From: a virus
Length of the DNA stretch: 64,000 nucleotides
Reading direction: 5' to 3' (one strand)
Virus record (IMG/VR): IMGVR_UViG_3300047472_000309
Coordinates: 124,001 to 188,000 of that record
Every line of letters starts with the position of its first letter. The first letter of the stretch is position 1. Positions 36,061-59,474 of the stretch are shown piece after piece. The notes beneath the pieces are model-generated. The model made no database searches. It was not told where the DNA came from and was given only the letters and a program-made list of their open reading frames with translations. A program made the position numbers and the translations under genes.

Positions 36061-36852
36061 ATGAGCAACAGTAAGTACAAGCGTAAACGCAAGACGCATG
36101 ATGCGCGCGACTTCGTTTACCACGGTCACAAGACCTTCGGGGCGGCCCTGATTCCGCCCAAAGCGGACTTGACGCCTTACCTCGGCCCGGTCTTCGATCA
36201 AGATCAGCTCGGTAGCTGCACCGCCAACGCCTGCGCAGGCGCACTTGAATACGAACAGAACATCCAGAACAACAATCACAACGCCGTGCCACTCTCGCGG
36301 CTATTCCTGTACTGGAATGAGCGTAATCTGGAAGGCACGGTCGATCAGGATTCGGGTGGTCAGATTCGTGATGTGGTGAAAGCCGCAGCCCAGTACGGCG
36401 CGCCGCTCGAAACCACCTGGCCGTACAATGAACGGGCGTTTCGTCAGAAGCCTTCGCTCGAAGCATATACTGAAGGGCTGCAACATCGGGCACTGAAGTA
36501 CGAAGCCGTGCCGCAGGACATGACGGCCTTCAAGCACGTGCTGGCGGTGCTCAATCGTCCGATTCTGATCGGCATCATGGTGTTCGATTCGTTCGAGTCG
36601 CAAGAAACGATCGCCTCCGGGGTCGTTCCGATGCCGGGTGCGAATGAAACCTGCCAGGGCGGTCACGCCGTGCTGTGCGTGGGTTACGACGATCAGAAGC
36701 AAGCATTTCTCGTGCGGAACTCCTGGAACGAAATCTATCCTCCGGCTTGGCCGGGTTCGAAGGAGCGAGGCTCGTTCTGGTTGCCCTACGAGTACATGAT
36801 GAATCCGGAACTCGCTGAAGACTTCTGGGTGATCACAAGCGTGAACGGCTAA
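36061..36852 (+). CDS. Papain-like cysteine peptidase (C1 family)
   Basis: 263 residues, ATG with AAAGGGG upstream. Catalytic residues visible: Q47 and C53 in QDQLGSCTANA, H202 in GGHAVLCVGYDD, N220 in VRNSWNE. No signal peptide or propeptide is visible and the start is basic (MSNSKYKRKRKTHD), so it may act inside the cell or be carried in the virion. One of the few plus-strand genes, with its own upstream region and terminator, hence a different expression time from its neighbours. A TATG occurs about 40 bases upstream, as in phiKZ late promoters, but this is weak. Confidence 0.92.
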   Translation: MSNSKYKRKRKTHDARDFVYHGHKTFGAALIPPKADLTPYLGPVFDQDQLGSCTANACAGALEYEQNIQNNNHNAVPLSRLFLYWNERNLEGTVDQDSGGQIRDVVKAAAQYGAPLETTWPYNERAFRQKPSLEAYTEGLQHRALKYEAVPQDMTAFKHVLAVLNRPILIGIMVFDSFESQETIASGVVPMPGANETCQGGHAVLCVGYDDQKQAFLVRNSWNEIYPPAWPGSKERGSFWLPYEYMMNPELAEDFWVITSVNG

Positions 36853-37308: not shown

Positions 37309-38574
37309 TTATGCCGTGTAGCGTGGATGCTGCCAACCGGCTTCTTTCGCTTGACCGTGGACCTTACCCAGCACGCCTTCCGAATACTCCGGTGCGACCA
37401 CCAGACCTTCCAGCGCACGCCACTTGTTGTACAGATCAACCAAGAAGCGCTTGACCATGTAGCGGATGGCCATGTTGTGTTTGTGCAGGTCCGTCTTCTC
37501 GGCGTGGCGCGGATCGTTCTTCAGGCGGTTCTTGTAATTGTTGTAGATGACCGCATACGGGCTCGGCTCAACCACCACCGTGTGACCCTTGGCGCGCAGG
37601 TAGATGATGACGGCCTGATCTTCGTCCATCTCTGCGTAGTCCTTCGGATCAAAGCCTTCTTCCTTAGCGAGCTCCAGCCGACGCAGTGCACCGACTTTCT
37701 TGCCATCCACCGTGGAGATGCCCGCACGCAAGAACGAGGTCCCTGCCACGCCGATCAGCTTGGTCTTCAGGAACGGGTTGAAGGTAATCGAATCACGCAG
37801 GGCGAGTTCACCTTCGCGGTTGGTGTATTCCTTCTGCACCAAACAGAAGTCACGCCGTGAACGACCGACCGCTTCGAAGGTCACCGGATACTTGCCTTCA
37901 GCGAGCATCGGCTGATCGAAGTTCTTGCTGTCGGCGTACCAGGCGTCGATTTCCTGACCCCGCACCGTCTGCTCACGACCCTTATCGTCGATGTACTTGC
38001 CGATGTGCACTACGTCCAGGCCTGCGAGCTTCCAGAGGCTTGACGGATATTCCGCCTTGGTGATGTCGATCTCAGAGACGATGATGCCTGCCAAGGCCGG
38101 ACCAATCCCGCGCACGCTCGACAAGAACTCGGTATAGATCGGGATCTTCTTCAGAATCCGTTCCATGTCCTTGAAGTGGTGCTCTTCGTTCTTGAGCGTG
38201 TTCAGGTAGTTATCCACCAGCAACAGTTCGCTGTAGTGCGTGATGAGCTCATCGCCCTTGAACTTCTTCTCCGTGGGGAGCTTAGCTGTCACGGTTTCAG
38301 CGGCTTCAGCCGTGTCGTCGTGGTGCTCGTCGATGATACCATCGGTGATGCGGCGATAGGACTTGCGCAGCTGCTCGAGCAGGTTCTTTTCCTGCTTCTC
38401 GAGTTCCGCCTCGCTCATGCCGTCCTGACGCAGACCGAGCTTGGCTTTGAAGCTCGCAGTCACGCGGTTACCCATCTGGATTCGCAGCCCTTGCATGTCA
38501 TAGGCCGAGCGCACCATGGTGCGAATCACTGCGAGGTTGGGGTTGTAGGTCGGAGCGATGATCGGGGTATTCAT
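37309..38574 (-). CDS. tas: Tas-like protein (TasA type): IS110 Transposase_20/Nop-like RNA-binding protein
   Basis: 421 residues from ATG at 38574 with AAGGAAACC upstream. Helical N-terminal 130; then about 145-190 a Transposase_20-like helix-hairpin segment (VRGIGPALAGIIVSEID, then LWKLAGLDVV), and a C-terminal helix about 360-388 (MAIRYMVKRFLVDLYNKW) as in IS110 recombinases. The IS110 N-terminal DEDD/RuvC domain is absent and no HNH is seen, and there are no insertion-sequence ends. With the 36-bp-period array beside it, this fits Tas proteins of TIGR-Tas systems, the nuclease-less type. Expected role: bind tandem-spacer RNAs and recognise DNA. Confidence 0.85.
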   Translation of the reverse strand: MNTPIIAPTYNPNLAVIRTMVRSAYDMQGLRIQMGNRVTASFKAKLGLRQDGMSEAELEKQEKNLLEQLRKSYRRITDGIIDEHHDDTAEAAETVTAKLPTEKKFKGDELITHYSELLLVDNYLNTLKNEEHHFKDMERILKKIPIYTEFLSSVRGIGPALAGIIVSEIDITKAEYPSSLWKLAGLDVVHIGKYIDDKGREQTVRGQEIDAWYADSKNFDQPMLAEGKYPVTFEAVGRSRRDFCLVQKEYTNREGELALRDSITFNPFLKTKLIGVAGTSFLRAGISTVDGKKVGALRRLELAKEEGFDPKDYAEMDEDQAVIIYLRAKGHTVVVEPSPYAVIYNNYKNRLKNDPRHAEKTDLHKHNMAIRYMVKRFLVDLYNKWRALEGLVVAPEYSEGVLGKVHGQAKEAGWQHPRYTA

Positions 38575-38620
38575 GATTCGGTTTCCTTGTTTCAATTGTA
38601 AGTGGTTGTATACGCGTTAA
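38575..38620. promoter_or_regulatory. Divergent promoter region of tas gene and array
   Basis: 46 bases separate the tas start from the first array repeat. It holds the common leader CAATTGAAACAAGGA for tas (minus). On plus, TTGTTT and TATACG, 16 bases apart, could be -35/-10 boxes for the array. Assignments are tentative. Confidence 0.4.
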
Positions 38621-40070
38621 TGTTACACTAGCTGCTCTTGGGTGAGACTCTACTGGTTTGATACACTAAGACAATCTGGATGAATCGTTGAGGTTGATAC
38701 ACTGTGCGAATATGGATGAATAAAGGTCGCTGATACACTACTCTACGCTGGGTGATTTCTGTATTGTGATACACACAGACCTGATGGATGAATAACCGTC
38801 CTTGATACACTAACCAACATTGGGTGGCTTTTGCGCCATGATCCACTATTTTCAACTGGGTGAATTGAATACGTTGATGCATTTTCCACGTTGGGTGGTT
38901 TAACTTCGCTGATACACAGTCCTTCGTTGGAGGACTCCAGGATAAAGATACACTAACCGGAATTGGGGGACTGTTTGACCGTGATACGTTACTGCACGTT
39001 GGGTGACTGCAAACATGTGACGCACTGCGAATTGATGGGTGGTTCAAGACTTTTGATACGTTGAGGGATACTGGAGGCCTAATGCACGATGACTCAATCA
39101 TCCTACTGGGCGACTTGATCGATGTGCTACACATACCTCGCATGGATGAATCCAATGTCTCGGTACGCTGATATTCATCGAGTGAAGGCGTCTTTCATGG
39201 CACACTTCATGCTTTGGGTGTCTCTTGCCTCTGATCCATTCTATCACAATGGGTGGCTGGAGCAGATTGATACACTCGAGATCGTGGGTGACATTCGTCC
39301 TACCTTGATACATTAACTCATGACGGATGCATAGACGTCTTTGATACACTTACGATGCATGGGTAATTAGCGTGCTTTGATGCACTAACTCTTTTTGAGT
39401 GCGCTTCCCGAAGTGGTACACTAAAAATTTTTGGGTGTCTGCGTATTTTTGATGCGGTTGATTGCGTGGGTAACTTCCATGTTTTGGCCCGTATTACTCA
39501 TTTGGGCGACAACACCTTTTGACGCACTTCTCCTCCATGGGCGAAATTAAACCGGTGGTACGATTTCGACTCTCTGGGGGACTATGTCAGTCTGACACAC
39601 TAGACTACAATGGGGGACTTTTACTCATTGATGCAATTATCCGGTTTGGGCGAATAACAAAAACATGGTACATTCATCTCTCCTGGGTGCTTCAACATGC
39701 CTGATGCGCAAGTGTAGTATGGGTGGCTTCATCTTCTCTGACGCACTGTTCGACAATGGGTCACTTAGTTACTGTGATACACATTTCCCCTATGGGTGCG
39801 ATACCGATGTGATACATTTATTGCAATTGGGTGACTGGTCCGGATTGATACGCTGACTACGCCTGGATGAATTAGCGCTCGTTGGCACACTGGCATAGGG
39901 TGGGTGAATCTTGAGTTTTCTGATGCGCTTGGCGCAACTGGATGCCAATGATACTGTGCCACACTTCGACAACTGGGTGACTTAACTTCCTTGGTCAACT
40001 ATGCGGGACTGGGTGACATCGATACTCTGATACACTAAATCAGTTGGGTGACTGGTGGTTCTTGATGCGT
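38621..40070 (+). repeat. TIGR-like array: 40 units, 36-bp period, two alternating repeats
   Basis: Each unit reads repeat 1 (consensus TGATACAC), about 10 variable bases, repeat 2 (consensus TGGGTGAC or TGGATGAA), about 10 variable bases. I located 41 copies of repeat 1 (first at 38621, then 38659, 38695, 38731 ... last at 40063); mean period 36.05, range 34-38. About ten copies of repeat 1 are exact; most others differ by one or two bases. Both repeats contain TGA on the plus strand, like box C/D cores. No open reading frame spans it. The dual-spacer 36-nt pattern matches published TIGR arrays, not CRISPR. Confidence 0.88.
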
Positions 40071-40076
40071 ACTACG

Positions 40077-40105
40077 GCCCGAGGTTTGCCTCGGGCTTTA
40101 TGCCG
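40077..40105 (+). terminator. Plus-strand terminator at the array's end
   Basis: GCCCGAGG/CCTCGGGC hairpin followed on the plus strand by TTTATGCCG, the tail used by this phage's terminators. On the minus strand no such tail follows, so it points to plus-strand transcription of the array. Confidence 0.85.
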
Positions 40106-40435: not shown

Positions 40436-40801
40436 TTACTGCGTGACTTCCACGACCTCGCCCGGAATCACACGAATCGAATCCGGCTCGTAGACATCCT
40501 TGTAACCTTGCGGGTACTTCCGGCCGATCTCGCTGTCGTCGTTACGCGGGTCCCAGTGCACCACGTACGGGCAGCGATTGCCGTCGTAAAAGCCGCTCAC
40601 CATAGCACCCATCATGGCGCTTTGCAACGCCGCATCCTGAATGGTCGCAATGGCTTGCGCCGCTGCGCGCGGATTTTCCTTCGCGTAGCTATTGGGCGTG
40701 ATGTTGTTGTAGCCGACGATGGTGCCTTTACCATGCGAGTGCGGACCACCGTCGAAGTGCGTGACGCGTTGGCCGATCGGCAGCAGCTGTATTGGTTGCA
40801 T
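40436..40801 (-). CDS. Hypothetical protein, 121 aa
   Basis: Start two bases after the previous stop, no clear ribosome site, so likely coupled. N-terminal SH3/barrel-like segment (GQRVTHFDGGPHSHGKGTIV) and a C-terminal 'EPDSIRVIPGEVVEV', typical of small beta-barrel adaptors. Not recognised further. Confidence 0.7.
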   Translation of the reverse strand: MQPIQLLPIGQRVTHFDGGPHSHGKGTIVGYNNITPNSYAKENPRAAAQAIATIQDAALQSAMMGAMVSGFYDGNRCPYVVHWDPRNDDSEIGRKYPQGYKDVYEPDSIRVIPGEVVEVTQ

Positions 40802-58382: not shown

Positions 58383-59474
58383 TTAGAGCTTCACTTCTTC
58401 CATGTAAAACGGCTGCTTCAGGTACACCGAACCCACCGCCTTCTGGTCTTCGATGTCAATCAACTCCGCCCACACTTCTTCACTGCCCCGAACCAACTGC
58501 GACTTCAACGCCTGGAACGGCAAGGGTTCTTCACCCTGCGCCAGGTCCTTCACGTCGCTCATTTCCATCAGACTGCGCAACAACTCCACGCCCTCGTTCA
58601 TGCTGACGATGAGCGCTTCATCGGGTACGTAGTCTTCACTGGTCTGCCCATCGGCGGTGAGCCAGAGGTCCGCCATCGGTTCCCGCACGATGCGTACGGT
58701 GAAATGATGGGCGTCACTGATCTTCACTACCGTGCGCAGCAAATGCGTCTCGACGGTCTCCTCTCGATTCACGTCGACGATTTCGAGCACCACCTTCTCG
58801 TACCACCACAGCCCTTTGGAGGGGCTGCCGTCGGCGTCCTGGGGTACTTCTTCGGTATAGTCGGCCGGACGCCTACAGAGGTGCAGCTTGAGCTGCGACC
58901 AGCCATCGCTTTGCTCGAGTGCCGTGTCTGCGCTTTCCACCGACTCATGGTCCACACCGATTTCACCAATCGTCGCATCCTGCAATTGCTGGATGATCTG
59001 TCGCACTAAGTTAATGTGCCCGTAGAGGGTTGCTTCCTCCTTGTTCACGGTGAGGTTGATGTTGGCATCTTCGTCGACGTTGATATACACGTCATCCTGG
59101 CCTTCGCGCACGACTTTCAGCTGAAAAGCATCGGAGTCTTGCGAGCTGGCAGGCGCCTTGGCGCTATCGTCCATGTAGGCGATGCTGTGCATGATCGCAT
59201 CGTCATCGGTGCGCACGACGTACAGTGCTGCCACGTCCCCATCGAGTTGCTCTTTCAGACTGATGAAAAGCCCGTCGCCGATCTCATCATTGGCAATCGC
59301 CTCCAGCTTCGTAATCGCCATGGCCAGATCACTGAACTGGGCCGCCTGGTCGCGTTGCGCCCAGAATTCCCGATCGAACAAGAACGCGTAAAAGGCCTCT
59401 GCGGTGTTGCCGGACTTCACGCATTTGATCATGTACTGCGACTGCATCGGGCTGGTCGCTTGCAACTCATTCAT
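58383..59474 (-). CDS. Acidic hypothetical protein, 363 aa
   Basis: ATG with GAGGAG upstream. Strongly acidic (many Asp/Glu), apparently two repeated beta-rich domains: about 110-180 (QLKVVREGQDDVYINVDEDA) and 245-300 (HFTVRIVREPMADLWLTADG) share the 'VRE..D.(Y/L)(I/L)..D' pattern. Possibly a DNA mimic or scaffold by charge; function unknown. Confidence 0.8.
   Translation of the reverse strand: MNELQATSPMQSQYMIKCVKSGNTAEAFYAFLFDREFWAQRDQAAQFSDLAMAITKLEAIANDEIGDGLFISLKEQLDGDVAALYVVRTDDDAIMHSIAYMDDSAKAPASSQDSDAFQLKVVREGQDDVYINVDEDANINLTVNKEEATLYGHINLVRQIIQQLQDATIGEIGVDHESVESADTALEQSDGWSQLKLHLCRRPADYTEEVPQDADGSPSKGLWWYEKVVLEIVDVNREETVETHLLRTVVKISDAHHFTVRIVREPMADLWLTADGQTSEDYVPDEALIVSMNEGVELLRSLMEMSDVKDLAQGEEPLPFQALKSQLVRGSEEVWAELIDIEDQKAVGSVYLKQPFYMEEVKL

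Follow-up and report, generated by a model that had tools for sequence, protein, structure and literature searches.

The 64,000-nucleotide stretch of viral DNA analysed here (the window; G000:C1:124001-188000, from a virus record of 310,654 bp, IMGVR_UViG_3300047472_000309) carries a gene for a 421-residue Nop-domain protein, tasA, and beside it a dual-repeat array of 40 units. We read the virus as a jumbo phage carrying a TIGR-TasA system, with a probability of about 0.85; most likely this system would bind non-self DNA under the guidance of RNA, without cutting it. The definition of TIGR-Tas systems and their targeting rules have been published (PMC12045711), and the family itself is already known; what is new here is the evolution of the array. 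The discovery paper calls the emergence and upkeep of such arrays an open enigma, and lists among its open questions how arrays grow and are kept up, where the spacers come from and what the nuclease-free TasA does (PMC12045711). In the present study we establish the anatomy, family membership and reading strand of the locus, together with selection on Tas and on the retained spacers and the turnover of whole units among sister phages.

The Tas protein and its family

An earlier note on this DNA had reported a 421-residue protein adjoining the array, and its gene is indeed found at 37309-38574 on the minus strand. The protein passes the NCBIfam model TIGR_Tas_endo (NF052498) with 100.1 bits at a cut-off of 100, as does a relative, L140, clearly (119.5 bits), whereas it fails the NCBIfam IS110 model with 21.7 bits against a cut-off of 140. 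A Pfam search of the protein gave no DEDD, RuvC or HNH match, as claimed; the IS110 Transposase_20 segment named in the same note does match, but below threshold (16.3 versus 21.3 bits). Searching PDB profiles with the family profile retrieved TasR (9mty, E 1e-21) and TasH (21kl, E 6e-16). The AlphaFold2 model (predicted local distance difference test 81), helical at the N-terminus, gave in Foldseek TasH and TasR as the sole PDB matches at E<1e-3 (5e-7 to 4e-5), with Nop5 and Prp31 matching weakly behind them; the Nop5 likeness looked for by structure prediction is present but weak, and no IS110 structure stands among the best matches. The family-profile pass, the resemblance to TasR and TasH in both sequence and fold, and the period-36 arrays found across the family uphold the TIGR-TasA type that had been proposed. 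As no nuclease domain was found, the assignment to TasA follows the published scheme (PMC12045711). The protein is a TasA of the known family, set apart by its size and by an unusually long and degenerate array; alignment with relatives of ~285 residues places one insertion at about residues 190-236 and a second at about 286-338.

A single-sequence search found 27 related loci, an alignment-based search gave 121 matches, of which 80 were kept, and a further 9 relatives came from bacterial assemblies; a lag-36 array lies beside tas in nearly all related loci scanned. As a separate observation, the phage protein family PHROG 4285, labelled transposase, matches the Tas protein with E 1.3e-26, and probably represents a Tas family.

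Anatomy and reading strand of the array

The array occupies 38621-40071 on the minus strand. Segmentation from 40071 to 38621 gives 41 edge and 40 loop repeats of 9 nt each, which alternate with a period of 36, and each unit reads, from right to left toward tasA, edge repeat AGTGTATCA, spacer A, loop repeat AGTCACCCA and spacer B, with spacers mostly of 9 nt (range 8-12). The lag-36 identity of the array is 0.410 against 0.254 (standard deviation 0.012) in shuffles, a z of ~13, and reaches at most 0.312 in any 1.4-kb stretch elsewhere in the window; both analyses agree with the 41 and 40 alternating copies and the period of 36 that had been claimed. The array has the alternating 8-12-nt repeats, ~9-nt spacers and 36-nt period that define TIGR-Tas arrays, and truncated edge repeats at both ends, the first (40063-40071, minus strand) lacking its 5' part, TACGCATCA, and the last (38621-38629, minus strand) diverged in its 3' part, AGTGTAACA. 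A CRISPR-Cas system was considered and rejected on the 9-nt dual repeats, which stand where CRISPR arrays have long, near-identical ones, and on the lack of any cas gene among the neighbours scanned.

The earlier statement that the array holds no open frame is strictly incorrect, there being a 175-codon frame with a TTG start at 38628-39155 (minus strand). The phage was compared with the complete records of two sister phages, G001 (92% identity over 92%) and G002 (89% over 94%). Stop-free stretches reach 188 codons in the window's array, 101 in that of G001 and 129 in that of G002. Because this length is not kept in the sister arrays we do not take the frame for a gene.

The repeats given in the earlier note, TGATACAC and TGGGTGAC, proved to be the complements of the true ones. 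Among 65 related loci scored for repeats, strand and terminators, the repeats have on the tas strand the form AG...CCA or AG...TCA, with the same orientation in arrays upstream (22) and downstream (43) of tas; a terminator follows the array on the tas strand in 9 of these loci and stands on the opposite side in 1. In Salicola phage CGphi29, whose array has been characterised experimentally, the tas strand carries the edge repeat AGCGAGCCA and the loop repeat AGACAACCA and then a terminator, and the window's two repeats read AG...YCA on the gene strand like those of this characterised array. Thus the array in the window reads along the minus strand toward tas, co-directional with tasA, and a plus-strand array is rejected on the repeat orientation, the terminators (9 versus 1) and the CGphi29 array.

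Turnover of units and conservation of guides

When the arrays of the sister phages were aligned unit by unit, retained units differed by 0-6 edits in ~18 and unrelated units by at least 10, with almost none in between; arrays therefore evolve, and quickly so, by losing, gaining or replacing units as wholes. Many units are kept at 89-92% genome identity, and one unit (CATGTTTGC / ACGTGCAGT) stands at different positions in the arrays of the window and of G001. The most conserved unit, W24 (39241-39276, minus strand; spacers ATCTGCTCC / TTGTGATAG), has identical spacers in the sister phages and also in phage L114, with a Tas of only 77% identity.

Judged from codon comparison, Tas is under strong purifying selection, with 84 synonymous and 9 non-synonymous codon differences between the window and G001. 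Retained spacers diverge by 7.1% from those of G001 and 8.4% from those of G002, the four-fold sites of tas by 25.4% and 37.2% (Fisher p against spacers 2e-9 and 7e-17) and the repeats of the retained units by 12.2% and 12.5% (p against spacers 0.0095 and 0.059), while for the G001-G002 pair the values are 4.3% in spacers and 8.9% in repeats (p 0.008). Recent exchange between phages might also keep spacer divergence low, but would bring the repeats with it, and selection on the spacers is therefore preferred. The retained guides seem to be under selection, changing less than expected under neutrality, and such conservation is evidence that the guides do something.

Other clades give a mixed picture. 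Where tas is 98-99.5% identical only about one third of the units are common (8/24 for L130-L132, 4/12 for L012-L159 and 4/15 for L018-L163), and the spacers of recent pairs change at about the four-fold rate or faster; in more diverged pairs they are slower (1.1% versus 17.5% for L122-L126, 2.3% versus 6.4% for L129-L187), and the repeats are the most constant part. Near-duplicate units (at most 4 edits) account for 28 of 9,051 pairs within arrays and 2 of 29,760 between loci, suggesting that units are duplicated and then diverge. CRISPR-like polar growth is not claimed: private units lean toward the tas end in two of the arrays, with p 0.0007 and 0.02, but not in the third, and repeat quality has no consistent gradient along the arrays.

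We propose tentatively, at somewhat under even odds, that the arrays are selected guide libraries in which whole units are lost, gained, duplicated and exchanged between phages without adaptation genes, and which would direct non-cutting TasA to long-lived non-self targets. The spacers have a guanine plus cytosine (GC) content of 0.446 versus 0.561 for the phage and are purine-rich in all arrays, and are therefore unlike random pieces of the phage's own genome. Across ~50 arrays of the family, purines make up ~58% of the spacers and the GC content lies on average 7 points below that of the flanks.

Searches for targets and evidence against the proposal

Cleavage in TIGR systems leaves 8-nt 3' overhangs (PMC12045711), and we derive from the published geometry that a target site would carry spacer A and then spacer B in reverse complement; for W24 the predicted site is ATCTGCTCC then CTATCACAA, with a gap of 0-2 bp. 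Permuted spacer pairs served as control and both possible layouts were tried. In IMG/VR, W24 gave 3 matches, spread over three unrelated phages, against 1 when searched in the wrong layout, and we attribute these matches to chance. The matching of paired spacers to genomes advised in the earlier note yielded no target in the phage genomes tested, and none in plasmid collections for the two conserved guides.

Several results weigh against the proposed system. Compared with permuted pairs, there was no excess of matches in the phage's own genome, G001, G002, G004 or Burkholderia phage FLC9, and likewise none when 1,119 units of the family were compared with 2.3 Mb including the flanks of related phages. 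The conserved 12+8-nt guide AGGTAGGACGAA / CGATCTCG had no match in IMG/VR, and short-query BLAST of both conserved guides against phage and plasmid collections found nothing, a search made with the gap-free form only and at the limit of what BLAST can do with queries this short. The repeats of the window's array are unusually degenerate, the margin in NCBIfam is thin, and the difference between spacers and repeats is modest at the p values given above. Finally, no terminator separates the window's array from tas, unlike the published pattern, in which a rho-independent terminator after the array is typical although not required (PMC12045711); for this reason array and tas may share a transcript.

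Alternative explanations

The same searches bear on the possibility that array and TasA serve to control genes of the phage itself through sites in its own genome, which we regard as unlikely. Of the 43 units of G001, two have a 17/18 match in the G001 genome itself, with the layout expected, where permuted pairs predict 0.10, a weak lead, and one of these sites, ACCTGAAGC-AG-CCGTTTTAC, at 58404-58423 of the window (G000:C1:182404-182423, minus strand) matches the tas-proximal guide of G001 at 17/18; this site is kept in G000 and nearly conserved in G001, with another 17/18 variant in G002, again a weak indication, here of a possible self or sister site. TasR tolerates some mismatches, so that weak self sites may exist. 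However, no unit of the window's phage matches its own genome with at most one mismatch, those with at most two number 2 against 2.5 expected, and over four arrays in their own genomes the counts are 2 versus 0.29 and 8 versus 7.8 expected, respectively.

That the array has lost its function and is a relic in decay is quite improbable. Its degenerate repeats and irregular spacer lengths, more so toward the 5' half, would fit decay, but the strong purifying selection on Tas (84 synonymous versus 9 non-synonymous codons) and the retained spacers, whose divergence is far below that of four-fold sites and also below that of the repeats in these units, argue the opposite. We give slightly less credit still to the idea that the processed guides (tigRNAs) direct RNA binding in the manner of box C/D guides rather than DNA binding: the Nop fold is common to box C/D proteins and the spacers are purine-rich (56-60%) with GC below that of the phage, yet the characterised TasR is inactive on RNA substrates (PMC12045711) and nothing here points to a fibrillarin partner. 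The reading as a gene for an IS110-type RNA-guided transposase with an unrelated tandem repeat next to it, to which the weak Transposase_20 match and the transposase label of the related PHROG 4285 might lead, can practically be dismissed given the missing DEDD domain, the failed NCBIfam IS110 model, the absence of IS110 structures among the best Foldseek matches and the presence of the same type of array beside nearly every relative.

Genomic neighbourhood and related loci

The tas region is flanked by a papain-like protease gene (36061-36852, plus strand) and a small gene (40436-40801, minus strand). The same two genes adjoin tas in G004, a phage of whose genome only 5% is alignable, so that the surroundings of tas are conserved in part. 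The closest named relative found, FLC9 (321,833 bp; 73% identity across the alignable 65% of G000), retains both flanks (86% and 65% identity) but without tas and array, and has in their place five small genes, gp164-168 (LC667451 152387-154848). A GC-rich hairpin at 40078-40099, to which no strand is assigned, lies directly 5' of the array and is kept in G001 and G002; its T-run is weak and on the plus strand.

Two further loci were observed. The isolated cyanophage Microcystis phage Mvi-JY20 (L202; PP438412 21367-22434) has a Tas-like gene that lacks annotation, and after it a 36-nt array (ATGCGAGCC/ACGAAACCC) and a terminator, and L191 (5890-6340), in an assembly of the candidate-phylum bacterium Moraniibacteriota, has a Tas relative with a nearby period-36 repeat of different consensus.

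Discussion

By analogy with characterised members, cleavage at the midpoint of every edge repeat would divide the transcript of the array into 36-nt tigRNAs, and each TasA dimer would hold one of these, one protomer carrying the edge repeat and the other the loop repeat. Spacers A and B would then pair with opposite strands of a ~18-bp site, opening and bending the DNA. Since TasA lacks a nuclease domain, it would probably block DNA and not cut it, so that transcription or replication of non-self DNA, either competing mobile elements or host loci, would be prevented, and a role as silencer or anti-competitor device may be envisaged. In the locus and its sister phages, which form a natural series, changes in the array can be followed directly, and target searches are best made with the guides that are most conserved.

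Compared with known systems, the protein shares with IS110 RNA-guided transposases a related RNA-binding domain (Transposase_20, weak), but has no DEDD domain and lies far below the IS110 cut-off, and an array takes the place of a bridge RNA. With TIGR-TasR (9mty, Thermoproteota) it shares the Nop fold, sequence similarity and a CCA-type box C at the repeat ends, whereas TasR has a RuvC nuclease, absent here, and a box D of UG in place of AG. The TIGR-TasH system of CGphi29 (SpTIGR, Faure et al. 2025) is likewise phage-borne, with a Nop domain, a period of 36 and edge and loop repeats on the gene strand, and its repeats match the window's family; its Tas, however, carries an HNH nuclease (PMC12045711), which the window's lacks, its ~11 units lie downstream with a clear terminator where here 40 units lie upstream with none, and the window's own repeats are degenerate. 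The locus resembles TIGR-TasA systems such as FpTIGR of Flavonifractor plautii, a solo Nop-domain effector with a dual-repeat array (PMC12045711), FpTasA being likened by description; it differs from them in the two insertions that enlarge its Tas and in an array of 40 units against the usual 5-15.
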